A stretch of DNA of 53,010 nucleotides, taken from the NCBI GenBank assembly GCA_001798185.1, contig MGRM01000007.1:1-53010 (forward strand), read 5' to 3'. Both the position numbers and the translations under genes were made by a program. Under the pieces are notes generated by a model that worked only from the letters and a program-made list of their open reading frames with translations, was not told the origin of the DNA and searched no databases. This document shows, piece after piece, positions 4,375 through 48,592 of the stretch. The DNA is from Deltaproteobacteria bacterium RIFCSPHIGHO2_02_FULL_44_16. Lineage in GTDB: Bacteria > UBA10199 > 2-02-FULL-44-16. Numbering within the stretch: position 1 is the stretch's first letter; each line of letters opens with the position of its first letter.

Positions 4375-4517
4375 AGTTCTCAAAATATATTGAACAGATC
4401 ATCATTCGGGTGACGCCGGAGGCTATTTCGGAAGCTACCGCATATCAGCGGAGCTTACGGAATGCCGCAGGCGGCAGGACCCGTTACAATTAAAAGGTTC
4501 AATATATTTTGAGAACT
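4375..4517. repeat. Palindromic element, family C, copy 1 (perfect 21-bp arms)
   Basis: Arms at 4375-4395 and 4497-4517 are perfect reverse complements over 21 bases and start AGTTCTCAAAATATAT. Inside are the conserved core blocks CGGGTGACGCCGGAGG (4408-4423) and GCCGCAGGCGGCAGGACCCG, and a tip hairpin AAGCT-a-CCGC/GCGG-AGCTT. The outer arm overlaps the stop codon of mltD (4516-4518). The element therefore lies in the 3' region of mltD and upstream of the lipoprotein gene, where a hairpin of this size would form in the transcript. See the matching copies at 13532, 29111 and 48443. Confidence 0.9.
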
Positions 4518-13087: not shown

Positions 13088-14221
13088 ATGAGTGTGGACG
13101 GTAAAGACTGGAAATTGACCGGAAATTTCTCGAGTCGCATTCGCAAAAAGGGCGAAGATGCGCGTGAAGAAAATCGAGACCGTCATGATGAGTTCATGCA
13201 AAAAAGCAAACAGGCGAAAAATGTTGCCAATGCGCTTCTCCATCAAACACGTGATATAAAACAAGGGGAAGCAAAACAAACCGTACAACGCACGGAAACC
13301 TTGCAACAATCAACATCGTCCTCTGACAAAAAAATTTCTTCTGCCATGTCGAACTCCGAAATTTCTCGTGAGGGGCATAAAGAAAAGGCCGGAAAGAATT
13401 TTGTTGAAGCAGCGCAAGCAGCAACAAATTTACAAAAACTTTCTACAAAGCAGATCCCAAAAGTAAATGTTGAACCAAAACAACCGACTCTTGCAAAACA
13501 GGGGACTGAGAAAACATCTTCTTCTTTGCCAGCGAGAAACACTTTCAAAACAGATGGGACACGGGTGACGCCGGAGGCTGTTCCGGGAGGCCTCCGCGAA
13601 AAGCGGAGGGCCGGAACACCGCAGGCGGCAGGACCCGAAACCAAAAAAAGTTTTGAAAGCGTTTCTCGCGAAACAAAACAATCTTTTGAAAATATCTCTC
13701 GCAAACCTGCTGAGGCAGGACAACCTCTTACGGTAAAGGCAGGGCCCGTTACGAAAGATCGTTTTGAAAGTACTTCTGAAAACAAAAAAGAATTTAAAAA
13801 AGATGAAACAAAAAAGAATGCTTCGTCTACTGCAGCATCCGCTTCTCCACTTTCCCGCTCACGCAAGGAAAACCTCGGCGAACTTGAAGCCGGTGTCTCA
13901 AGTCGTTTTGGTGGCGAATCCGGAGAGAATATTATTGTTCAGGATGGAGATGTTCTTTCTTCTCTGACGATTGAAGAGTTTCCTCAACCTTTTGAAACTT
14001 TCAATGCAGAAGCCGCAGAAACAGCCGTTGTCACCAAGGGACGACAATATAAATATTTTATTGAAAAGACACGCGATCAGCTCAATGCCATTCGTGAGTT
14101 TGACGAAGAACTTGAGATGGGACTTCAATCACTCGCAAAACGTGTCTTAACCGATGACCCAGATCTGAAACTCTCGACCGCGGATTTCATCAAAAATATT
14201 TATGGAGGAACACGCGCATGA
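13088..14221 (+). CDS. Hypothetical low-complexity protein with an inserted palindromic element, 377 aa
   Basis: The ATG follows AGAGGAG by 4 bases. The protein is highly charged, Lys/Glu/Ser/Thr-rich and probably disordered for residues 1-270, with a helical C-terminus (VTKGRQYKYFIEKTRDQLNA onward). There is no signal peptide or known domain. Residues about 149-194 are encoded by a family C palindromic element (RVTPEAVPGG…AGTPQAAGPE). A decayed second copy encodes AGQPLTVKAGPVTKDRFES. A short repeat (FESVSRE, FENISRK, FESTSEN) follows each. The last bases (ATGA) overlap the next gene, so the two are translated together. Function unknown; a partner of the 1040-aa coiled-coil protein is likely. 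Confidence 0.8.
   Translation: MSVDGKDWKLTGNFSSRIRKKGEDAREENRDRHDEFMQKSKQAKNVANALLHQTRDIKQGEAKQTVQRTETLQQSTSSSDKKISSAMSNSEISREGHKEKAGKNFVEAAQAATNLQKLSTKQIPKVNVEPKQPTLAKQGTEKTSSSLPARNTFKTDGTRVTPEAVPGGLREKRRAGTPQAAGPETKKSFESVSRETKQSFENISRKPAEAGQPLTVKAGPVTKDRFESTSENKKEFKKDETKKNASSTAASASPLSRSRKENLGELEAGVSSRFGGESGENIIVQDGDVLSSLTIEEFPQPFETFNAEAAETAVVTKGRQYKYFIEKTRDQLNAIREFDEELEMGLQSLAKRVLTDDPDLKLSTADFIKNIYGGTRA
13532..13669 (+). repeat. Palindromic element, family C, copy 2, inside a reading frame
   Basis: Arms at 13532-13551 and 13650-13669 pair over 20 bases with one mismatch (GCGAGAAACACTTTCAAAAC against its complement). The core is CGGGTGACGCCGGAGG…GTTCCGG and CCGGAACACCGCAGGCGG followed by CAGGACCCG, with tip hairpin CCTCCGC-gaaaa-GCGGAGG. 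The whole element is translated without a stop as part of the 377-aa protein. Confidence 0.88.
13700..13769 (+). repeat. Palindromic element, family C, partial copy
   Basis: GGCAGG, a degenerate middle, then GGCAGGGCCCGTTAC and an arm-like GTTTTGAAAG match the 3' half of family C elements. The 5' half is missing or decayed. It is read in frame in the same protein, giving AGPVTKDRFES, equivalent to AGPVTAKRFEI in copy 3. Confidence 0.6.
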
Positions 14222-20914: not shown

Positions 20915-20958
20915 AGAGTAAACATACTATCAATAAAAGTCAATTTTATTAATAGTAT
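20915..20958 (-). promoter_or_regulatory. Promoter and operator-like dyad of the DUF4143 ATPase gene
   Basis: On the minus strand TTGACT (20943-20938) and TACTCT (20920-20915) are 17 bases apart. The -35 box sits at the centre of an inverted repeat: ATACTATCAATAAAA (20924-20938) and TTTTATTAATAGTAT (20944-20958), 15-bp arms with one mismatch. A repressor bound there would block RNA polymerase. Confidence 0.6.
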
Positions 20959-25474: not shown

Positions 25475-28400
25475 TTACTCCAAGATAGAAATTTGTCCGA
25501 CTTCGTCGCGCTCGTTTTGCATCATGTCGTAACAGCGCTCGCCTTCGAAATTTTCAGGATCGCCATTCGGATTGCAGACCCAACCGTTCAAGATGATAAA
25601 AATAGGAACCTCTTTAAACGCAAAGGTGAGATCGTTTGAACTTCCAAAATGCATTGCCGTCACAAATGTCACCACACCGGTTTCATGATCTACAGGACGG
25701 CCATGGAGAAAGGCAGTGCCGCCACTGATTTTCGGATCGTCTTGAGGACAGCCCGCTGGAATTTTTCCTTCAGGATCTTTTGAAAGAAGTGGAGCGAGAT
25801 AACGCCATGTACTCAACACTTTCCCGTTAATGGTTTTATTTTTCACCGTTCCTTCGCACAGTGGAGGATTGACGTGCGCAGAATCCGTAAGATTTATTTT
25901 GTACATCTCTCGCGCGTGATCGATCGCTTCATTGGGAAGCACATTTGGGTCCTGCGGACTTTCTTGGGGTTTAATCGTGTGTGTCGTGACGGCGGTGAGT
26001 GAAACAGCATCAAGAGGTCGAACTTTTTCAAATGGACCATAGGGATTGTGGAAGTATGTCGGCCCAAAGAGACGAAAACCTAACTCTTCAAAGGTAATGT
26101 GTCCATCAAGTGTGTAAATGCCGGTATTCCCATCAATCAGTGCAGGCTCTTGATTGACGGCATCACAAAAGTGACGACGTATGCCGCCGGGTAATTCTGT
26201 TGGAGTATGAAACTCGGGACTATCGTATCGTCCGGCACTTCCAAAGAAGAAGGCGCATGCTCCTTTTCCTCCCGGAGGAACACCGATATCACTCAAAAGT
26301 TTCATCTCTTCATTGGAACAGGGATTGATGGTGACACAGTGAGAAGGCCACGGCGGGCCTGCTTTTGAGGTGAGCGGTCCAGGATACGAGAGAGAAGTGG
26401 TAAACATACGAAAACCATTTGATTGAAATCCTGCTGGAATATTTGGATATCCTTCAAAAATTCCCTGCTTCCCTTCAGGTTTGGTTTCGTCATGAAGAAA
26501 ACCTGAATAGTCATACAAAAGAGGATCTTCATATTTCTCACTTCGAATATGAGTCGCAACCTTTCGTAAAACCGCTGTGACTCCATCTCCGGGAATGGTG
26601 GCTGGTTCATTGGAATCGGTCATCGGATAGGTGTCATCATCAAAGGGATCGAGAAGTACGGCAGCGATGAAAAGTTGTGTGTCACTCTCGGTTGCATTTC
26701 CTTTTTTGAGTTCTTGAATAAAATAAGAATGTTTATCTGCAGATGAAACTCCAGATACCTGAGGATGAAGAATAATTGCCATCGCCTGGGTGATTCTCAC
26801 CACAACCATGCCTTGGAGAGGATTGACCGCTGCCATGAGATCAATCGTAAATTTTGTCTCCTTAAAACTTCCATCGGGATTGCGAAGAGGTTTTCGCGTT
26901 TCACTCAGTTGAAGAGCGCTTACCGTCAGGGTGGCTTTGGAAACTCTCTTTTCATCCGTAGGTTCACGATGAAAATGGAGACATCCAAAAAGAGGCAGGT
27001 TTTCTTTCGAATGTGCTCCGGGAAGAAGATCAAAACCGGTTGCTCCCCGCGAAACAGGAGAAAGATCAGTGGAACAATTTCCCCCTTTTATTTTTTCTGG
27101 AGTATCAAGAAGCTCAAATTTTGAAGCATCTTCTCCTTCAATATTTATTGACACAATGCGAAGTGGTTGAGTCGCTGTTTCTGAAAGTTTTAAGAAAAGA
27201 GGGACAACTTGATCCTTGGTTTCAGCGGTAATGTCACGAAAGGGAAAGTTTTCCCCATGCGCAATTTGTCGCAGCCGTTTCGTTGTTTTTACAAAAAGTT
27301 CGAGTTCCGGAATTTCTTGAATCGTGGTTTTCCCAGAGACGCGAGCTTCTATTTTTCCAACATCAGTAATGACGGTGATAAGGGCTCGGTCGATCGCAGC
27401 ACTTCCGATGCCCGCAGAAGATCCATCACTTCCTCGTAGGTCGTGAGGATGATAAGCGACGACAACAAAAGCAGAAGCATTTTTCTTTTCCGAAGAAAAC
27501 GGAGGAAGCGTAAAGGGAAGTTGTTGAGGCTGTGCCTCTTTTCCATTCAATGCGTTTTCAATTTTTTGTTGGATATCACGAATATTCGAAGCAACAAATA
27601 CTCCTTGAACAGGGAGTGAAAATTCCCCTTTGGACTGAGAATGTTGAATATCTTCTAATGTAATTGATTCAATTGTCAGCGGCGTGACGCCATTATTGCG
27701 AAGCGCGAGCACTTGTTTTCCCGCCACAATTTTCATTTCGCTTGTCCCTTTGAGATCGATGGTGAGAAGGGGCGTGGCATTCGGATAACGCGCTTCACAT
27801 GTTGATGTGACTTCGCCTAAAGGATTGCCTTCAACAGAAACCGGTAAGAGTTGGCACTGTTTCGAAGTGGCATCTTCACACGGTTTACAGTTCGTAAACG
27901 TTTCAGTTTCTTCACACTTGATGAGAGTGCATTGGAAGAAACGTTTTTCTGAACTTGTGGTGACCGTCATTTCTCCAAGATCTATTTTTTCTATTCGCGA
28001 TTGAAGAATCTCTCCTTCTTCACTCAATGCATCGAGTGAAGGTTTCCCTTGCGGATTCAAAGCAGCGGCAACAAGTTGAAAGGCATCGTTGCCGATAATC
28101 ATTGATTCCATCACTTTTCCTGGTTGCACATCATTGACGTGAGGATGAAAGGTAATGGAGAGAAGAAATGATTGTTGAGGACTGAGTTGACGAGTGAGGG
28201 GATCACGCGCATCGAGAGCAAAAGCGCCAATTTTGGAAGGAAGATCAATATCGAGTGTTTGAGAACTGATATTCTTGATTCGAAACAGCGCAGCTGTTTC
28301 AAACTTTGCGCCGACGTCTTGCTCATTTTGAGCAATATAGGTTCCATTCGAAACTTCGAGATACTTTCCTTCAGGAATCGGCGACGCGCTCTCGTGTCCA

Positions 28401-29275
28401 GATTCATTCAACTGTATTTTGTTCACCTCAAGTGAACGAGGAAGGCCTGAATCTCCACATTCCTCAAGTGTTGGCTTGATGGAACCTTCAAAGGAAGCCG
28501 TGAGAGACGCATCAAGAAGAAGATCATCAGTCGCATCAAAAAGATGAGGGAGTGTTGTTGCGGTAACAAGACGCATAGCTCCGGTTGAATCAGGAGGAGA
28601 ACCGGCGAGAGAAGGGAGATACTTCAGTTCTGGAGTTGTCCCTGTTGTGAGGGTGAGGCCTGGGACCTCCGCGGAAGAGCCGATAATATTAATGAAAAGA
28701 GAGAAATCTTGAATGACGATATTGCCGACAGCATCGATCGTCCCCTCGCCTTTATTCTCTTCGCCCGTTCCATCTCCCTTGCCATTAATAATAATGGGAA
28801 CAGGAAGAGCTTTGCCTTCAACTGCAATGTCAGGAAATTCGTCGCCTTGAATGGTGACCGTTGCGCCCGTGATGCGAAGAGGAAACGGAGGGACTTCGGT
28901 GCAGATGGGTCCCTCTTTTTCTGTGCCGGCTTCAAAGTGATCTCCTTTGAGAGTGACACAGAGCTTCGACGTAAAGGTGACATTACATTTGCGTCCCTTT
29001 ACTTTTTCACCTGGGAGCGGCTCTTTTTTTTCAGCGACATCAGTTGAAGGAAAATAACGAAGTGGTTTGTCTTCTCCAACGCAGCTTGAGATGAAAAAAA
29101 ATACAACAAAGAAGAGAGAAATGATTTCAAAACGCTTCGCTGTAACGGGTCCTGCCGTCTGCGGTGTTCCGGCACTCCCCCATGAACCGCGGGGGAGACC
29201 TCCCGGAACACACTCCGACGTCACCCGAATCTCATCAGTTTCGAAATCATTTCTCTCTTCATGCAATTTCATCAT
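25475..29275 (-). CDS. Giant lipoprotein with ASH-like repeats and an element in its signal region, 1266 aa
   Basis: AAGGAGACA precedes the ATG at 29275. Residues 49-65 (FEIISLFFVVFFFISSC) are a lipoprotein signal with lipobox ISSC, but it is preceded by 48 residues, most of them encoded by a family C palindromic element (RVTSECVPGG…AGTPQTAGPVT). The mature part has repeated segments like the ASH/choice-of-anchor type (LFRIKNISSQTLDI, LRIVSINIEGEDASKFELL, LSITFHPH). A Cys-containing C-terminal region (about 800-1266) is unrecognised. The protein is expected at the cell surface. The gene is divergent from a secreted 1006-aa protein and followed by the 584-aa gene; functions are unknown. Confidence 0.85.
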   Translation of the reverse strand: MMKLHEERNDFETDEIRVTSECVPGGLPRGSWGSAGTPQTAGPVTAKRFEIISLFFVVFFFISSCVGEDKPLRYFPSTDVAEKKEPLPGEKVKGRKCNVTFTSKLCVTLKGDHFEAGTEKEGPICTEVPPFPLRITGATVTIQGDEFPDIAVEGKALPVPIIINGKGDGTGEENKGEGTIDAVGNIVIQDFSLFINIIGSSAEVPGLTLTTGTTPELKYLPSLAGSPPDSTGAMRLVTATTLPHLFDATDDLLLDASLTASFEGSIKPTLEECGDSGLPRSLEVNKIQLNESGHESASPIPEGKYLEVSNGTYIAQNEQDVGAKFETAALFRIKNISSQTLDIDLPSKIGAFALDARDPLTRQLSPQQSFLLSITFHPHVNDVQPGKVMESMIIGNDAFQLVAAALNPQGKPSLDALSEEGEILQSRIEKIDLGEMTVTTSSEKRFFQCTLIKCEETETFTNCKPCEDATSKQCQLLPVSVEGNPLGEVTSTCEARYPNATPLLTIDLKGTSEMKIVAGKQVLALRNNGVTPLTIESITLEDIQHSQSKGEFSLPVQGVFVASNIRDIQQKIENALNGKEAQPQQLPFTLPPFSSEKKNASAFVVVAYHPHDLRGSDGSSAGIGSAAIDRALITVITDVGKIEARVSGKTTIQEIPELELFVKTTKRLRQIAHGENFPFRDITAETKDQVVPLFLKLSETATQPLRIVSINIEGEDASKFELLDTPEKIKGGNCSTDLSPVSRGATGFDLLPGAHSKENLPLFGCLHFHREPTDEKRVSKATLTVSALQLSETRKPLRNPDGSFKETKFTIDLMAAVNPLQGMVVVRITQAMAIILHPQVSGVSSADKHSYFIQELKKGNATESDTQLFIAAVLLDPFDDDTYPMTDSNEPATIPGDGVTAVLRKVATHIRSEKYEDPLLYDYSGFLHDETKPEGKQGIFEGYPNIPAGFQSNGFRMFTTSLSYPGPLTSKAGPPWPSHCVTINPCSNEEMKLLSDIGVPPGGKGACAFFFGSAGRYDSPEFHTPTELPGGIRRHFCDAVNQEPALIDGNTGIYTLDGHITFEELGFRLFGPTYFHNPYGPFEKVRPLDAVSLTAVTTHTIKPQESPQDPNVLPNEAIDHAREMYKINLTDSAHVNPPLCEGTVKNKTINGKVLSTWRYLAPLLSKDPEGKIPAGCPQDDPKISGGTAFLHGRPVDHETGVVTFVTAMHFGSSNDLTFAFKEVPIFIILNGWVCNPNGDPENFEGERCYDMMQNERDEVGQISILE
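29111..29260 (-). repeat. Palindromic element, family C, copy 3, in a signal-peptide region
   Basis: Arms at 29111-29133 and 29238-29260 pair over 23 bases with one mismatch. On the minus strand the core is CGGGTGACGTCGGAGT…GTTCCGG, then CCGGAACACCGCAGACGG and CAGGACCCGTTAC, with tip stem CTCCCCC/GGGGGAG. The 29111-29133 arm is the coding sequence of the lipoprotein signal (FEIISLF), and the other arm is its inverted copy within the first 13 codons. Confidence 0.9.
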
Positions 29276-29342
29276 TGTCTCCTTATCGCCGAAGAAGAGA
29301 AAAGGTTGCGCCGCAAGATTCTGCAAGCCGCACTGTTCTGAC

Positions 29343-32452: not shown

Positions 32453-32504
32453 CCTCTCTCAAAACGTTTTATCGTTTGAGGGTCCTGCCGCCTGCGGCAT
32501 TCCG
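32453..32504 (-). repeat. Palindromic element, family C, truncated copy
   Basis: Read on the minus strand it has CGGAATGCCGCAGG and CGGCAGGACC, identical to copy 1, and ends in an arm-like GTTTTGAGAGAG. The 5' half of the element is absent. It begins 14 bases after the stop of the 1006-aa gene. The 352-bp gap 32440-32791 holds this, family A (32579-32652) and family B (32688-32758) repeats and no supportable gene. Confidence 0.75.
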
Positions 32505-32578
32505 TCATTAGACTTCTTGCATAACCTCAATAGAATCCAGCCTATAAAGTTTTTGTTTTCAAAGAGATACACTTGGAT

Positions 32579-32652
32579 GTCATCGCGAGCGAAGCGTGGC
32601 GATCTCCCGAGTAAACAGAGGAGATTGCCACGCCCTTCGGGCTCGCAATGAC
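32579..32652. repeat. Dispersed repeat, family A, copy 2
   Basis: GTCATCGCGAGCGAAGCGTG to CGGGCTCGCAATGAC form an imperfect palindrome with inner GGCGATCTCC/GGAGATTGCC. It matches the element at 12791-12890. Confidence 0.8.
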
Positions 32653-32687
32653 AACGAGTGTCACCCAGGGTTACGCAAGAGGTCTAT

Positions 32688-32758
32688 TGTCATTCCCGCG
32701 AAGGCGGGAATCCAGAAAACAACGAAAACACTGGATCCCTGCTTTCGCAGGCATGACA
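32688..32758. repeat. Dispersed repeat, family B (TGTCATTCCCGCG type), copy 1
   Basis: TGTCATTCCCGCGAAGGCGG with GAATCCAG at the left and CTGGATCCCTGCTTTCGCAG with GCATGACA at the right form an imperfect palindrome of a type common in proteobacterial genomes. Further copies are at 44171 and 52344. Confidence 0.85.
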
Positions 32759-39924: not shown

Positions 39925-41331
39925 ATGTCGCGCATTTTGGTAGTTGATGATGAAGCTTCGATCCGAAAAGCGCTTGAGCGTTTTTTGCGAGAGTTGGGGC
40001 ATGAAGTTTTTGTGGCGGCTGATGGCGAGGAGGCGCTTCATATTCTTCAAACCGAAACGCTCGATTTGGCGCTCGTTGATCTGGTGATGCCGAAGATCGA
40101 TGGCATCGAACTCATTCGACGTTTGAAGCAGCACGATCCAAATATTGTGGCGATCGTCCTGACCGGTTTTGGAACGATCACCTCTGCGGTCGAAGCCATG
40201 CGTGCTGGCGCGTATCATTATCTGACGAAGCCGTTTGAGCTTGATGATATTGCTTCGCTCATTTCATTGGCACTTGATCATCGTGAACTCAAACAAGAAA
40301 ATCGTCGCCTCAAAAGCCAACTTCATGGTCGATATCGATTTGAAAATATCATTGGGACCAACGAAGGCTTAGGTCCTGTTTTTGATATGATCGAACGGGT
40401 TTCAGAAACTGATAGCACCGTGTTGATTTTAGGTGAAAGTGGAACCGGAAAAGAACTGATTGCTCGAGCCATTCATTATAATAGTCCGCGTCGAGATAAA
40501 TCTTTGGTGACCGTAAACTGCGCTGCGATTCCTGAAGATCTTTTAGAGTCGGAACTTTTTGGACATGTGCGAGGCGCTTTTACGGGTGCGGTGCAAACTC
40601 GACCCGGAAGATTTGATGCAGCTCATCACGGGAGTATTTTTCTCGATGAAATTGGAGATATGAGTTTAAAGCTTCAGGTGAAACTCCTTCGTGTTCTTCA
40701 AGAGCACCGATTTGAACCTGTTGGTTCGAATAAAACGCACCAAGTTGATGTTCGAATTATTGCTGCCACCAATCAAGATTTAGAAAAAGCGGTCAATGAG
40801 GGACGTTTTCGCGAAGATCTTTATTATCGCTTACATGTCATTCCCATTCGTGTCCCACCCTTGCGGGAACGGCTCGCTGATGTTCCACTTCTTGCGGAAC
40901 ATTTTATGAAAAAATTTAATAAGGCAAATAATCATCATGTCAGAGGTCTTTCCTCTGATGCTCTTGATGCCATGATGAATTATGCATGGCCCGGAAATGT
41001 ACGTGAGTTAGAGAATGTGATTGAACGCGCAGTGGTGTTACAACACGATGGAGAAATTCAAGCAAAAACCCTTGAGGAGAAATTGCGGCAACCAAAAGTT
41101 TTGGGAGAACGAAAAGATGCAACCACGGCAGCGCATGTGGGGATTCGTATTCCCGATGAAGGCATTTCATTTAAACACGCAGTTGCGGATTTTGAAGCCC
41201 AATTGATTCTACAAGCCTTGGAAAAAACAGGTGGGAATAAAAATCAAGCAGCATCACTTTTAAAATTAAATCGAACGACACTTGTCGAAAAAATTAAAAA
41301 GCAACAACTTGAAAAACGAACGACGGGATAA
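39925..41331 (+). CDS. Sigma-54-dependent response regulator, NtrC family (first of three)
   Basis: AAGGAGGTTGT precedes the ATG. The receiver domain is intact (ILVVDDEASIRKALERF, phospho-acceptor Asp in LALVDLVMP, Lys in LTKPF). The AAA+ domain has Walker A GESGTGKELI, the RpoN-contacting GAFTGA loop (HVRGAFTGAVQTRPGRFDAA), LDEIGDMSLKLQVKLLRVLQ and ATNQDLEK. A Fis-type helix-turn-helix lies at the end (GNKNQAASLLKLNRTTL). It is cognate to the preceding histidine kinase. Its stop shares a base with the next start (TAATG), so the two activators are translated together. Confidence 0.95.
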   Translation: MSRILVVDDEASIRKALERFLRELGHEVFVAADGEEALHILQTETLDLALVDLVMPKIDGIELIRRLKQHDPNIVAIVLTGFGTITSAVEAMRAGAYHYLTKPFELDDIASLISLALDHRELKQENRRLKSQLHGRYRFENIIGTNEGLGPVFDMIERVSETDSTVLILGESGTGKELIARAIHYNSPRRDKSLVTVNCAAIPEDLLESELFGHVRGAFTGAVQTRPGRFDAAHHGSIFLDEIGDMSLKLQVKLLRVLQEHRFEPVGSNKTHQVDVRIIAATNQDLEKAVNEGRFREDLYYRLHVIPIRVPPLRERLADVPLLAEHFMKKFNKANNHHVRGLSSDALDAMMNYAWPGNVRELENVIERAVVLQHDGEIQAKTLEEKLRQPKVLGERKDATTAAHVGIRIPDEGISFKHAVADFEAQLILQALEKTGGNKNQAASLLKLNRTTLVEKIKKQQLEKRTTG

Positions 41332-42755
41332 TGATGACGAAGATAACCGATTTACTTATTGTGGATGATGACGAAACGCTTGTCCGTGTTTTTGAACGTC
41401 TGGCGCGCGAGCGGGGATGGAGCTATCAGATTGCTCGTGGCGGAGATGAAGCAGTTCAAAAATTAGGAAAGAATGTTTTTGCCGTCGCGCTTCTTGACAT
41501 GAAACTTCCCGGGTATTCTGGTCTTCAGGTGCTGGAATATATCAAAAAAAATAAAATCCCTACTGAAGTTCTGATGATTACAGGTGGTGGCTCCGTTGAA
41601 GCGGCTGTTTCTGCGATGAAGCAAGGAGCTTATGATTTTCTGACCAAACCTTTCGATAATATTGAGCGAATCGCACTTGTGATCCAGAAAGCACACGAAC
41701 GTTATGAGATGACGCAAAAATTAACGCAGCTCGAGCGACAACATTCCGGTTCGACTTCCTATGAAGATATCATTGGGAAAAGTAAAAAAATGCAGGAAAT
41801 TTTTTCGACGATCGATGCTATAGCCAGTACAGATTCTACAGTTCTGATCTATGGGGAAAGTGGGACCGGAAAAGAACTCATTGCTCATGCGATTCAGCGG
41901 CGATCGAAACGAACGGAAAATCCCTTTGTCATTATTAACTGTGCGGCCATCCCCGCAAATTTATTAGAGTCTGAATTTTTTGGACATCGAAAAGGCTCTT
42001 TTACGGGAGCTATTGCTGACCGAAAGGGACTTTTTGAAGAAGCAGATAAGGGGACTGTTTTTCTTGATGAAATTGGAGAACTTCCTCTTCCCCTTCAAGT
42101 CAAAATTCTTCGTGTTCTTCAAGAAGGTGAGTTGCGACCCATTGGAGAGACTGATGTTCGTAAAGTAGAAGTACGTGTCATAGCCGCGACAAATCGTGAT
42201 TTGCCGATGCTCGTAAAAAAAGGAGAGTTTCGCGAAGATCTTTATTATCGGCTCAATGTGATTAATCTTTTTATTCCTCCTTTACGTGAGCGTGCCGAGG
42301 ATATTCCTCTGCTTGCCTATCATTTTTTGGAAAAATGTTCGAAGCGCTCAAAGAAAAAGATCGAAAAAATATCAGTTGATACGCTTCAAGCGCTTCAAAA
42401 TTATTCGTGGAGTGGCAATGTTCGAGAGCTTGAAAACGTCATCGAGCGGGGAGTGGTGATGGCCAAAGAAGATATTCTCCAAGCTCAAGATCTTCCCGCA
42501 AAAATTTTAGGAGAATCTTTTTATGTCGATGGAGAAGTCATGGATGCTGATCTCTCGGATCTTGAATATCAAAAGGCCAAAGGGAGAGCGCTTGGATCGT
42601 TTAATCGAGCCTATATTGGGAACTTATTGCGACTTACGCATGGCAATGTTTCTACCGCTTCTGAAAAAGCAGGAATGGATCGAAGTAATTTTAAAAAACT
42701 GATTAAGCGATACAACATTAATATTGATGAATATCGTCATTCATCACGAAAATAG
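41331..42755 (+). CDS. Sigma-54-dependent response regulator, NtrC family (second of three)
   Basis: The receiver domain is canonical (LLIVDDDETLVRVFERL, ALLDMKLPG, FLTKPF). The AAA+ domain has GESGTGKELIAHAI and the RpoN loop as GSFTGA, a common variant that keeps the Phe. The C-terminus carries a Fis-like helix-turn-helix (NVSTASEKAGMDRSNFKKLI). The start overlaps the stop of the upstream activator. It may compete for, or work with, the same kinase; the DNA-binding helices differ, so target promoters should differ too. Confidence 0.95.
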   Translation: MMTKITDLLIVDDDETLVRVFERLARERGWSYQIARGGDEAVQKLGKNVFAVALLDMKLPGYSGLQVLEYIKKNKIPTEVLMITGGGSVEAAVSAMKQGAYDFLTKPFDNIERIALVIQKAHERYEMTQKLTQLERQHSGSTSYEDIIGKSKKMQEIFSTIDAIASTDSTVLIYGESGTGKELIAHAIQRRSKRTENPFVIINCAAIPANLLESEFFGHRKGSFTGAIADRKGLFEEADKGTVFLDEIGELPLPLQVKILRVLQEGELRPIGETDVRKVEVRVIAATNRDLPMLVKKGEFREDLYYRLNVINLFIPPLRERAEDIPLLAYHFLEKCSKRSKKKIEKISVDTLQALQNYSWSGNVRELENVIERGVVMAKEDILQAQDLPAKILGESFYVDGEVMDADLSDLEYQKAKGRALGSFNRAYIGNLLRLTHGNVSTASEKAGMDRSNFKKLIKRYNINIDEYRHSSRK

Positions 42756-42766
42756 GAAGGGGCTCT

Positions 42767-44149
42767 ATGAAGGATGCTACGATTGTCATTGCTTCTGCGG
42801 GGAAAAATCCTCCCATTACTATTTTCAAAGCGCTTGAAAAAGTAGGCTGGAAGACCGTGAAGATTTCGATCAAGAATCTTGAACCGACGCTGACCTCTTC
42901 TTCTCCGGATTGCGTGATTGTGATGCTCGAGGAAAACGATCGCGATCTTATTCTTCGTGTGCTCGAAACGATGAAATTTTATGATGATAATCTTCCTCTG
43001 CTTGCGGTGTCCGAATCTCAATCGCTGGAAGATGCCGTGAATGTGATGAAAGCGGGCGCTTACGATTATTTTTCGATCCCCATTGATCATGAAAAGTTGC
43101 GCCATTCGGTTTCGAATGCCGTGAGACTGTATAAACTGACCAAGCGAGTTTTTCTTCTGGAAAGTCAGATGGGATGGCGTGGTCGTTTTGATGATATCAT
43201 TGGCCAAAGTTCAAAGATGCAAGAGATCTTTGGAATGGTGCAAATGGTGTCAAAAAGTAATGCCACGGTTTTAATTCAGGGTGAAAGTGGAACGGGGAAA
43301 GAGCTTATTGCCAAAGCTATTCATCGGCATAGCGATCGCGAGAAGAAAATATTTCTCGACATTAATTGTGGCGCGATCCCGCGCGAGCTTCTTGAAAATG
43401 AAATGTTTGGACATGAACGAGGTTCTTATACCGGAGCGGATCGGCGTTATATTGGAAGTATTGAACGAGCGCATGGAGGAACTCTTTTCCTCGACGAAAT
43501 TAGCGAGATGGATATGTCGCTACAGGTGAAGCTCTTGCGATTTTTACAAGAACGGACCTTAAATCGCATCGGGGGCAATGAACAAATTTCAGTCGATGTG
43601 CGCATTGTGACGGCGACGAATCGCAATTTGGTGAAAGAAGTGGAAGAGGGACGTTTTCGTGAAGATCTCTTTTATCGATTAAATGTGGTTCCGATTAATC
43701 TTCCTCCACTTCGAGATCGACGTGAAGATATTCCAGTGCTTGCCAAATCTTTTCTCGAAAAATATTCTATGAAAAATGAAAAAATCTTTCTCGATTTTGC
43801 TCCCCAGGCCATGGAAGCGTTGCTTGCGTATGACTGGCCGGGAAATGTGAGAGAACTTGAGAATGTGATTGAGCGCGTTGTTGTTCTGAATAACGATAGT
43901 CGTGTAAAGCTTGCGCATTTTCCAGCGCAAATTCAAACCACACGCAAAAAAGCAACCATGCAGTCCTCATTTACAGATGTGATGCCAATTGATATGGAAA
44001 AGATCCTCCCCTTGGAGCTTGTGGAGAAATATGCTATTGAAGCGGCGCTCCAACGTTGCTTGGGAAATGTAGGCGAAGCCGCTGGAAAACTCAAAATTGG
44101 TCAGGCAACATTATATAGGAAGATTAAACAGTATGGCTTACGAGTTTAG
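42767..44149 (+). CDS. Sigma-54 activator with a degenerate receiver domain (third of three)
   Basis: The AAA+ core is complete (GESGTGKELIAKAI, FLDEISEMDMSLQVKLLRFL, ATNRNLVK, PGNVRELENVIERVV) and a Fis-type helix-turn-helix ends the protein (NVGEAAGKLKIGQATLY). The N-terminal 120 residues keep a receiver fold (AVNVMKAGAYDYFSIPID) but lack the acidic pocket (IVIASAG in place of VDDD) and the phospho-acceptor Asp (CVIVMLEEND, Met at that place), and Lys of TKP is Ile. It is therefore probably not controlled by phosphorylation. The RpoN loop is GSYTGA, with Tyr at the key Phe. A ribosome site AAGGGGCT precedes the ATG, 11 bases after the upstream stop. Confidence 0.94.
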   Translation: MKDATIVIASAGKNPPITIFKALEKVGWKTVKISIKNLEPTLTSSSPDCVIVMLEENDRDLILRVLETMKFYDDNLPLLAVSESQSLEDAVNVMKAGAYDYFSIPIDHEKLRHSVSNAVRLYKLTKRVFLLESQMGWRGRFDDIIGQSSKMQEIFGMVQMVSKSNATVLIQGESGTGKELIAKAIHRHSDREKKIFLDINCGAIPRELLENEMFGHERGSYTGADRRYIGSIERAHGGTLFLDEISEMDMSLQVKLLRFLQERTLNRIGGNEQISVDVRIVTATNRNLVKEVEEGRFREDLFYRLNVVPINLPPLRDRREDIPVLAKSFLEKYSMKNEKIFLDFAPQAMEALLAYDWPGNVRELENVIERVVVLNNDSRVKLAHFPAQIQTTRKKATMQSSFTDVMPIDMEKILPLELVEKYAIEAALQRCLGNVGEAAGKLKIGQATLYRKIKQYGLRV

Positions 44150-44170
44150 AAGCTAGTTGAAATGAACTTA

Positions 44171-44226
44171 TGTCATCCCCGCGCAGGCGGGGATCTCATG
44201 AGATTCCCGCTTTCGCGGGAATGACA
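44171..44226. repeat. Dispersed repeat, family B, copy 2
   Basis: TGTCATCCCCGCGCAGGCGG to TTTCGCGGGAATGACA, with the palindromic middle ATCTCATGAGAT. It lies between the third activator and the STAS gene and may form a hairpin that separates two transcripts. Confidence 0.85.
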
Positions 44227-44261
44227 ACAGATTATTCCGGCGCTAAAGAAGAGGAGAGGAT

Positions 44262-47547: not shown

Positions 47548-48445
47548 GACCACTGTCGTGGCTTCCAATTTGGTGTTTCCTCTGTTCGTTGTTCCGGGGA
47601 AAGGAGTGCGTCGTCCGCTTCCCTCACTTCCTGGACAGTTTCATCTTTCGGTTGATGAACTTGTCAAAGAGGTGAGAGAAACATTTATGAAAGGCATTCA
47701 TGCCTTTTTGCTTTTTGGAGTTCCTGATACAAAAGATGAAAGAGGAGAAAGCGCTTGTCGCGATGATGCTCTTATTCCTCAAGCTCTTCGCGCCGTAAAA
47801 GATGAAGTGCCGCAGGCGTGTGTCATTACTGATGTTTGCCTTTGTGCGTATACCACGCATGGACATTGCGGCGTGGTGGATGAAAAGGGAAATATTCTGA
47901 ATGATCCAACGCTGGAGATTCTTTCATCTATGGCGCTTGCACATGCTCGTGCTGGTGTCGATGTCATTGCTCCGTCAGACATGATGGATGGTCGCGTTGC
48001 CGCTCTTCGCAAAGCGCTTGATCACAATGGATATCAACAGACATTGATTATGAGTTATGCTGCAAAATTTGCTTCTGCTTTTTACGGTCCCTTTCGTGAT
48101 GTTGCTCATTCGACCCCACAATTCGGTGATCGCAAAACATATCAGATGGATATGCGCAATGGACGCGAGGCGTTGCGTGAGATGGAGCTTGATCTTCAAG
48201 AAGGGGCAGATATCGTGATGGTGAAACCGGCGATGCCCTATCTCGACGTCATCAGTAAAGCACGTGAGCGCTTCGATGCTCCGATTGCTGCGTATCAAGT
48301 GAGTGGTGAGTATGCCATGATCAAAGCAGCCGCAAAAGAAGGCTGGATCAATGAGAGAGCGGCGATGATAGAATCACTCATGGCGATTAAGCGCGCTGGT
48401 GCTGATATGATTATTACGTATTTTGCAAAAGGCTTCGTGGAGTGA
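47483..48445 (+). CDS. hemB: Delta-aminolevulinic acid dehydratase (porphobilinogen synthase)
   Basis: HemB joins two aminolevulinates to porphobilinogen in tetrapyrrole synthesis. The 320-aa protein has the zinc-site Cys motif TDVCLCAYTTHGHCG, the Schiff-base lysines in MSYAAKFASAFYGPFR and MVKPAMPYLD, and GVDVIAPSDMMDGRV. I chose the ATG at 47483 because CGGAGA lies just upstream and homologous proteins begin with the segment that follows (RLRRLRVSEPLRHLV); an upstream ATG at 47441 would overlap folC further. The stop lies in the first arm of a palindromic element, and the C-terminus (YFAKGFVE) is a little short, so the element may have trimmed it. Confidence 0.94.
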   Translation, partial: AFPTTRLRRLRVSEPLRHLVAETTVVASNLVFPLFVVPGKGVRRPLPSLPGQFHLSVDELVKEVRETFMKGIHAFLLFGVPDTKDERGESACRDDALIPQALRAVKDEVPQACVITDVCLCAYTTHGHCGVVDEKGNILNDPTLEILSSMALAHARAGVDVIAPSDMMDGRVAALRKALDHNGYQQTLIMSYAAKFASAFYGPFRDVAHSTPQFGDRKTYQMDMRNGREALREMELDLQEGADIVMVKPAMPYLDVISKARERFDAPIAAYQVSGEYAMIKAAAKEGWINERAAMIESLMAIKRAGADMIITYFAKGFVE

Positions 48446-48582
48446 AAACTCAATTGCAAAACTGACAAATGATTCGGGTGGCACCGACGTTCGGATCCCA
48501 GGGGCGCCCCGCGTCAGCGGGGAGGTGGAACGACGGAGGTGACAGGACCCGTAACAGTAAATGTTTTGAAATTGAGTTTTCA
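48443..48582 (+). repeat. Palindromic element, family C, copy 4, between hemB and polA
   Basis: Arms at 48443-48462 and 48563-48582 pair over 20 bases with one mismatch (TGAAAACTCAATTGCAAAAC). The core is more diverged (CGGGTGGCACCGACGT…, GGTGACAGGACCCGTAAC) but the tip stem CCCCGC/GCGGGG is perfect. The first arm contains the hemB stop; the second ends 10 bases before the polA ATG, so the element forms the whole hemB-polA gap. Confidence 0.85.
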
Positions 48583-48592
48583 TCATAAAGTT

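Follow-up and report, generated by a model that had tools for sequence, protein, structure and literature searches.

For decades it has been known that bacterial genes can be invaded by short palindromic repeats, and the way in which these insert is largely unsettled. Among the systems closest to the one described here are the Rickettsia palindromic elements (RPEs), which are dispersed units of 105-150 bp that form one long stem-loop and often lie in frame in unrelated protein genes (PMC2229807; PMC10969869). REP sequences are likewise short and palindromic, are sometimes found within genes, often lie no more than 20 bp from the 3' end of the upstream ORF and, in some families, sit inside palindromes (PMC3733652). 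Bacterial MITEs are non-coding and dispersed, are shorter than 200 bp and can be fused in frame to genes (PMC2229807). A perfect reverse-complement arm can also be created in one event by replication template switching, giving quasipalindrome mutations (PMC8794818), for which the coding palindromes of nematomorph mitochondrial DNA are a comparison case (PMC6649704).

The present study concerns a repeat located at 29111-29260 of the window, by which is meant the whole stretch of DNA that was analysed (53,010 nt), in the 5' end of a lipoprotein gene. The repeat resembles the RPEs in being a dispersed unit with one long stem-loop (~65 copies of 130-155 nt, fold z about -7) and in being inserted in frame in unrelated protein genes. 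In the literature, however, RPEs carry terminal inverted repeats that belong to the element, whereas here the outer arms differ from copy to copy (64 different outer 10-mers among 64 copies) and are, at the focal locus, probably derived from the host. This comparison rests on published descriptions of RPEs, and Rfam, which possibly holds no RPE families, gave no usable match for the window at gathering scores or for the focal locus by E-value. With REPs of the GTAG/CGTC families the repeat shares its short palindromic form, its presence in some genes and its crowding behind stop codons, but REPs measure 20-40 bp and carry an unpaired tetranucleotide tag at one end, while here the core is ~100 nt and its CGTC lies inside the stem. 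Moreover, the palindromes around REPs fit a consensus, whereas each palindrome seen here is unique. REPs are also associated with RAYT (Y1_Tnp) genes, which they flank, whereas the Y1_Tnp genes of this genome have no copies of the core beside them. Like MITEs, the repeat is small, non-coding, dispersed and fused in frame to genes, but MITEs are marked by terminal inverted repeats that are conserved and by direct duplications of the target, whereas here the copies have no more than the inner 9-10 nt of their arms in common and the target duplication would be inverted.

The reading favored here, to which we assign a probability of roughly 0.6, is that the focal insert represents a single insertion event of a mobile repeat that is non-autonomous and forms a hairpin, and that one host flank served as template for its own reverse complement across the core by fold-back synthesis. 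No description of an inverted target duplication for a bacterial element was found in the open-licence literature searched, and host-derived inverted arms on a mobile hairpin are provisionally regarded as an undescribed insertion scar. A mirror image of one flank in every copy would be a written record of the insertion reaction, which makes that reaction testable.

Anatomy of the Insert

The host gene (25475..29275, minus strand) encodes a large lipoprotein of unknown function that starts with the ATG at 29275, has the lipobox ISSC (Cys codon 29081-29083), gave no match to a Pfam family and has orthologues in 20 of 40 relatives. An inverted-repeat search identified two arms of 23 nt in its 5' end, at 29111-29133 and 29238-29260, that are 96% complementary (22 of 23 positions paired, one mismatch) and are separated by 104 nt. 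Read on the coding (minus) strand, the order is the Shine-Dalgarno sequence AAGGAG (29279..29284, intact), ATG ATG AAA TTG CAT, the arm GAAGAGAGAAATGATTTCGAAAC, the core, the arm GTTTTGAAATCATTTCTCTCTTC and the residues FVVFFFISSC. The arm at 29111..29133 codes on the minus strand for FEIISLF of the lipoprotein signal peptide, while the gene reads EERNDFE from the arm at 29238..29260, which has no counterpart in the orthologues. The stretch between them (29134..29237, plus strand) is the core of the mobile hairpin repeat including short spacers and the inner ends of the element, and within it the conserved inner hairpin CGGGTCCTGCC...CGTCACCCG (29146..29227, plus strand) consists of near-invariant columns in an alignment of 28 copies. 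On folding, the insert strand gives one long hairpin with z scores relative to shuffled sequences of -7.4 as DNA and -7.1 as RNA. The pairing of the arms at 29111-29260 is far beyond chance, since all 64 inspected copies with the same core in this genome bear such arms, the sequence differing each time.

The preliminary description of this locus had reported inverted arms flanking an insert in the 5' end of the lipoprotein gene, and these were recovered. It had also taken the arm near the start codon as the reverse complement of 29111-29133, which is correct apart from one mismatched pair, and had placed the insert between the start codon and the signal, where it does lie, although after MMKLH and not directly behind the ATG. 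The reported extension of 48 residues is indeed an in-frame N-terminal insert, but comparison with the nearest orthologue gives a net gain of 129 nt (43 codons). The minus-strand ORF is open from the ATG at 29275 through the core into the lipoprotein signal peptide FEIISLFFVVFFFISSC, and the host gene survives because the insert is in frame and contains no stops. A sigma28-like promoter motif (GCAACTTTTT ... GCCGATAA; 29283-29311, minus strand) is situated just 5' of the start codon and is kept in most relatives. With this motif just upstream and both the start codon and the Shine-Dalgarno sequence intact, the lipoprotein should still be made, with the n-region of its signal peptide lengthened by a predicted ~43 residues.

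Copies of the Core

A BLAST search with the core gave 40 places in the 1.98-Mb genome from which the window comes, and a covariance model built from 28 copies gave 67 matches, two of which are opposite-strand doubles, leaving ~65 copies. The cores fall into at least two subfamilies, whose inner ends are the same. The window contains four full copies, namely the focal one and three on the minus strand, at 4375..4517 (perfect 21-nt arms, AGTTCTCAAAATATATTGAAC), at 13531..13670 within an ORF (arms GCGAGAAACRCTTTCAAAAC) and at 48442..48583 between hemB-like and polA-like genes (second core subfamily, arms TGAAAACTCAATTKCAAAAC). A truncated copy comprising the left half only is present at 32457..32505 on the plus strand. 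Other palindromic repeats, of the GTCATTCCCGCG..CGCGGGAAT and TGTCATCGCGAGCGAAGCGTGG types, occur at 32593-32712, adjoining this truncated copy, and at 44161-44236. A different kind of repetition is seen at ~40380-43900, where three similar consecutive stretches ~1.42 kb apart look like tandem genes for sigma54 activators of the NtrC type.

Outside this genome, the sister genus G002 has three copies of the core, and a G002 contig, from a groundwater Deltaproteobacteria MAG, was the sole match in a pattern search of GTDB genomes. Weaker, diverged relatives are scattered across the class, in 11 of 146 genomes at an E value of 1e-3 with the present genome counted.

Arms That Differ in Every Copy

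Complementary arms with a median length of 19 nt bound all of the 64 copies inspected in the genome. The outer 10 nt of an arm match those of its own partner by at least 90% in 37 of the 64 copies, compared with 6 of 4032 swapped pairs, and the likeness of outer arms is no greater for pairs of copies with cores at least 97% identical (0.39) than for those with cores less than 80% identical (0.38), such that the site-specific arms vary independently of core ancestry. Outside the family this independence is even clearer, as two copies in G006 and one in G007 have one core in common while their perfect arms, of ~21-29 nt, are unrelated. When arm positions are taken together over the copies, 898 are paired, 13 are A.C, 9 are G.T and 22 are transversion mismatches, and the complementarity is that of DNA identity with no G.U bias.

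Since near-identical cores bear unrelated arms, the arms are probably acquired at each insertion, and the finding that A.C mismatches are as common as G.T points to DNA copying rather than RNA covariation. The general claim of the preliminary description, that an arm is made from host sequence, is also borne out, in that copies with cores at least 97% identical have arms that bear no relation to one another. A conserved RNA with a covarying stem was rejected on the basis of the mismatch types and of the identical cores with unrelated arms. A search of the near flanks for other sources of the arm sequences gave no clear excess.

The arms might instead be terminal repeats that belong to the element and diverge while compensatory change or gene conversion preserves their pairing. 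The inner 9 nt of the arms, which tend to TTTCRAAAC and are common to the copies (inner 9-10 nt only), would fit this explanation, as would a weak purine-rich preference across the outer arms, an arm resembling AGACCTCTTTCGAAAC that recurs in a few copies, and the LivF gene, where both arms are extra to the host. The purine preference and the recurrent arm also count against fold-back synthesis at insertion, and they raise the possibility that some arms are in part supplied by the element. As an account of the arms in general, however, terminal repeats are rather improbable, given that outer-arm likeness is independent of core likeness, that an excess of G.U is absent and that the focal arm at 29111-29133 is native signal-peptide code. 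Inverted duplications are in addition a known class of artefact, and they could stem from fold-back during amplification or assembly of this metagenome-derived genome, but the arms are always found around the same core family, reading frames remain open across them and the same anatomy is present in several independent genomes, so an artefact is extremely improbable.

The Probable Native Arm at the Lipoprotein Gene

Of the two focal arms, the preliminary description had considered 29111-29133 to be native signal-peptide code from which the other was made, and comparison of the N-terminus with orthologues agrees with this assignment at the protein level. The orthologues in G001, G002, G003 and G005-G008 are free of the element, have ordinary signal peptides of ~17-29 residues and in no case bear both arms. 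Those of the same family have the short signals MMKKWLTIISLISVFGC (G001), MKHFHRYCFLLLMLAICGC (G002) and MKKLYLYNLTGLFFALSLFTSC (G003). The G001 protein, from another genus of the family, begins with MMKKWLTIISL and has MMK and IISL in common with the focal gene, four residues apart. If TTGCAT is joined to TTTGAAATC in the focal gene, using the arm 29111-29133 alone, the product is in frame with the same four-residue spacing, MMK-LHFE-IISL compared to MMK-KWLT-IISL at the empty site of G001. Because of this spacing, and because the net insertion of 129 nt is close to the 127 nt of the core plus one arm, we infer from proteins of different genera that the arm at 29111-29133 is native and the arm at 29238-29260 its copy. 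In G017 a diverged element with the arms GTGAAAAAGTGG / CCACTTTTTCAC occupies the same place in the lipoprotein gene, and there too the signal-peptide side looks native.

Insertion of the element into the center of palindromes already in the genome would also produce paired flanks. Some REP families are found in such a setting (PMC3733652), and when the flanks in TsaD of G035 are rejoined they read AGGGAACGTTCCCT, with the length of the orthologues. The window has almost no palindromes with arms of at least 12 nt and a loop no longer than 14 nt, however. Its 53 kb contain two, of which one is another repeat, and shuffled sequence contains one, compared with four occupied sites, and the orthologues do not show pre-existing palindromes, making this origin for the arms quite unlikely. 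A lone AT-rich palindrome with 15-nt arms and a 5-nt loop is located at 20923-20958 and has no element in it.

Length Changes at Other Sites

In-frame copies are found in unrelated protein genes that include those for MetH, YggS, MiaA, LivF, PyrD, MutL, MutY and lipoproteins. The net gain relative to orthologues is 111 nt in both MetH and YggS, 108 nt in MiaA, 102 nt at L021 and 144 nt in LivF. In the first four, the orthologue length is restored by removing ~102-111 nt, little more than the core, and the arms extend 4-16 nt beyond the removed segment on each side, while in LivF the unit with both arms, 144 nt, is extra to the host. At some sites other than the focal one, both arms fall within the normal length of the host. 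One arm in MiaA has lost the GE motif that almost every orthologue has, a pattern expected of a rewritten flank and counted in favor of fold-back synthesis. Since the net gain varies between slightly more than the core and the core with both arms, it appears that a copied arm can either add to the target or replace part of it. Nor does the native side seem to be fixed, as at some sites the opposite side looks native, and a rule that would place the native arm on the CGGGTCCTG side in every case, which looked true at first, seems to fail (L013, L202).

These length-neutral sites bring in the main rival explanation, in which insertion adds just the core hairpin with short ends and the long arms arise later by replication template switching (quasipalindrome correction) that turns one flank into the complement of its partner, with no change in length. 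Template switching is an established process that generates perfect stems in one event (PMC8794818), and MetH, YggS, MiaA and L021 fit the orthologue length once little more than the core is removed. Its products are like the arms seen here in that a neighboring stretch is copied as its reverse complement with Watson-Crick pairing and no G.U bias. A parental site with just one arm is suggested at the focal locus by G001, at the protein level. On the other hand, quasipalindrome events occur at scattered loci, whereas here they would have to accompany every copy of one mobile repeat. All 64 copies are already armed, including groups whose near-identical cores indicate that they are recent, and both the focal locus and LivF show added length. 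Later template switching is therefore an unlikely explanation for the family as a whole, though it may account for the length-neutral sites.

A Possible Insertion Mechanism

In the favored reading, fold-back synthesis would take place at insertion and use one host flank as template, with its reverse complement laid down across the core. We infer this timing, as well as the polarity and the involvement of the flank. The core hairpin would fold the end of the element back onto the flank that is already joined, DNA synthesis would then run 10-20 nt along this flank, and the new end would either be joined to the opposite flank or switch back to it, in many cases with the loss of about as much target. 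The copied stretch would amount to ~10-16 nt of host sequence, or ~19-23 nt with the short ends of the element, and at the focal locus the template would be the downstream, signal-peptide side. That the net gain is not constant across sites (102-144 nt) speaks against this scheme. A new mode of DNA mobility, in which hairpin-primed target copying leaves an inverted rather than a direct target duplication as the mark of each insertion, is put forward tentatively, at somewhat below even odds. Hairpin insertion is one way for a gene to acquire a long perfect hairpin along with an in-frame segment.

No direct repeat of a constant kind was seen outside the arms, and LivF shows a possible CGAT duplication. 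RAYT and reverse transcriptase genes show no association with the copies and were rejected as the mobilising partner, and no candidate for the mobilising enzyme was found among them. Of four Y1_Tnp places in the genome, none is flanked by copies of the core, the one nearby copy being ~1.6 kb away, and Y1_Tnp genes are present in element-free relatives and absent from some that bear the element.

Location of Copies in Operons and Proteins

In compact operons, the unit fills the gap from the stop codon of the upstream gene to the Shine-Dalgarno sequence or start of the next, while the sufB-sufC junction of G002 has only TGAcatcaAAGGAG at that place. In most intergenic copies (e.g., L016, L020, L024 and L041), the outer end of the upstream arm is within a few bases of the upstream stop codon. 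Measurement of the insertion site from a ribosome at the stop codon was considered, as it would fit the way in which intergenic copies adjoin such codons, but REPs too have been described as lying close behind the stop codon of the upstream gene (PMC3733652), and compact operons together with a purine-rich target preference may suffice.

Many in-frame copies are located in signal-peptide n-regions, often of lipoproteins (L001, L003, L013 and L020, L036 in G002, L079 and L209 in G017, and L207 in G026). The same protein positions, such as the lipoprotein signal peptide, have also been struck across genera, which allows tolerance and target choice to be studied: the MutY linker in G000 (L179) and G002 (L182) and the YggS loop in G000 (L023) and G026 (L214) contain copies with different core types in different genera.
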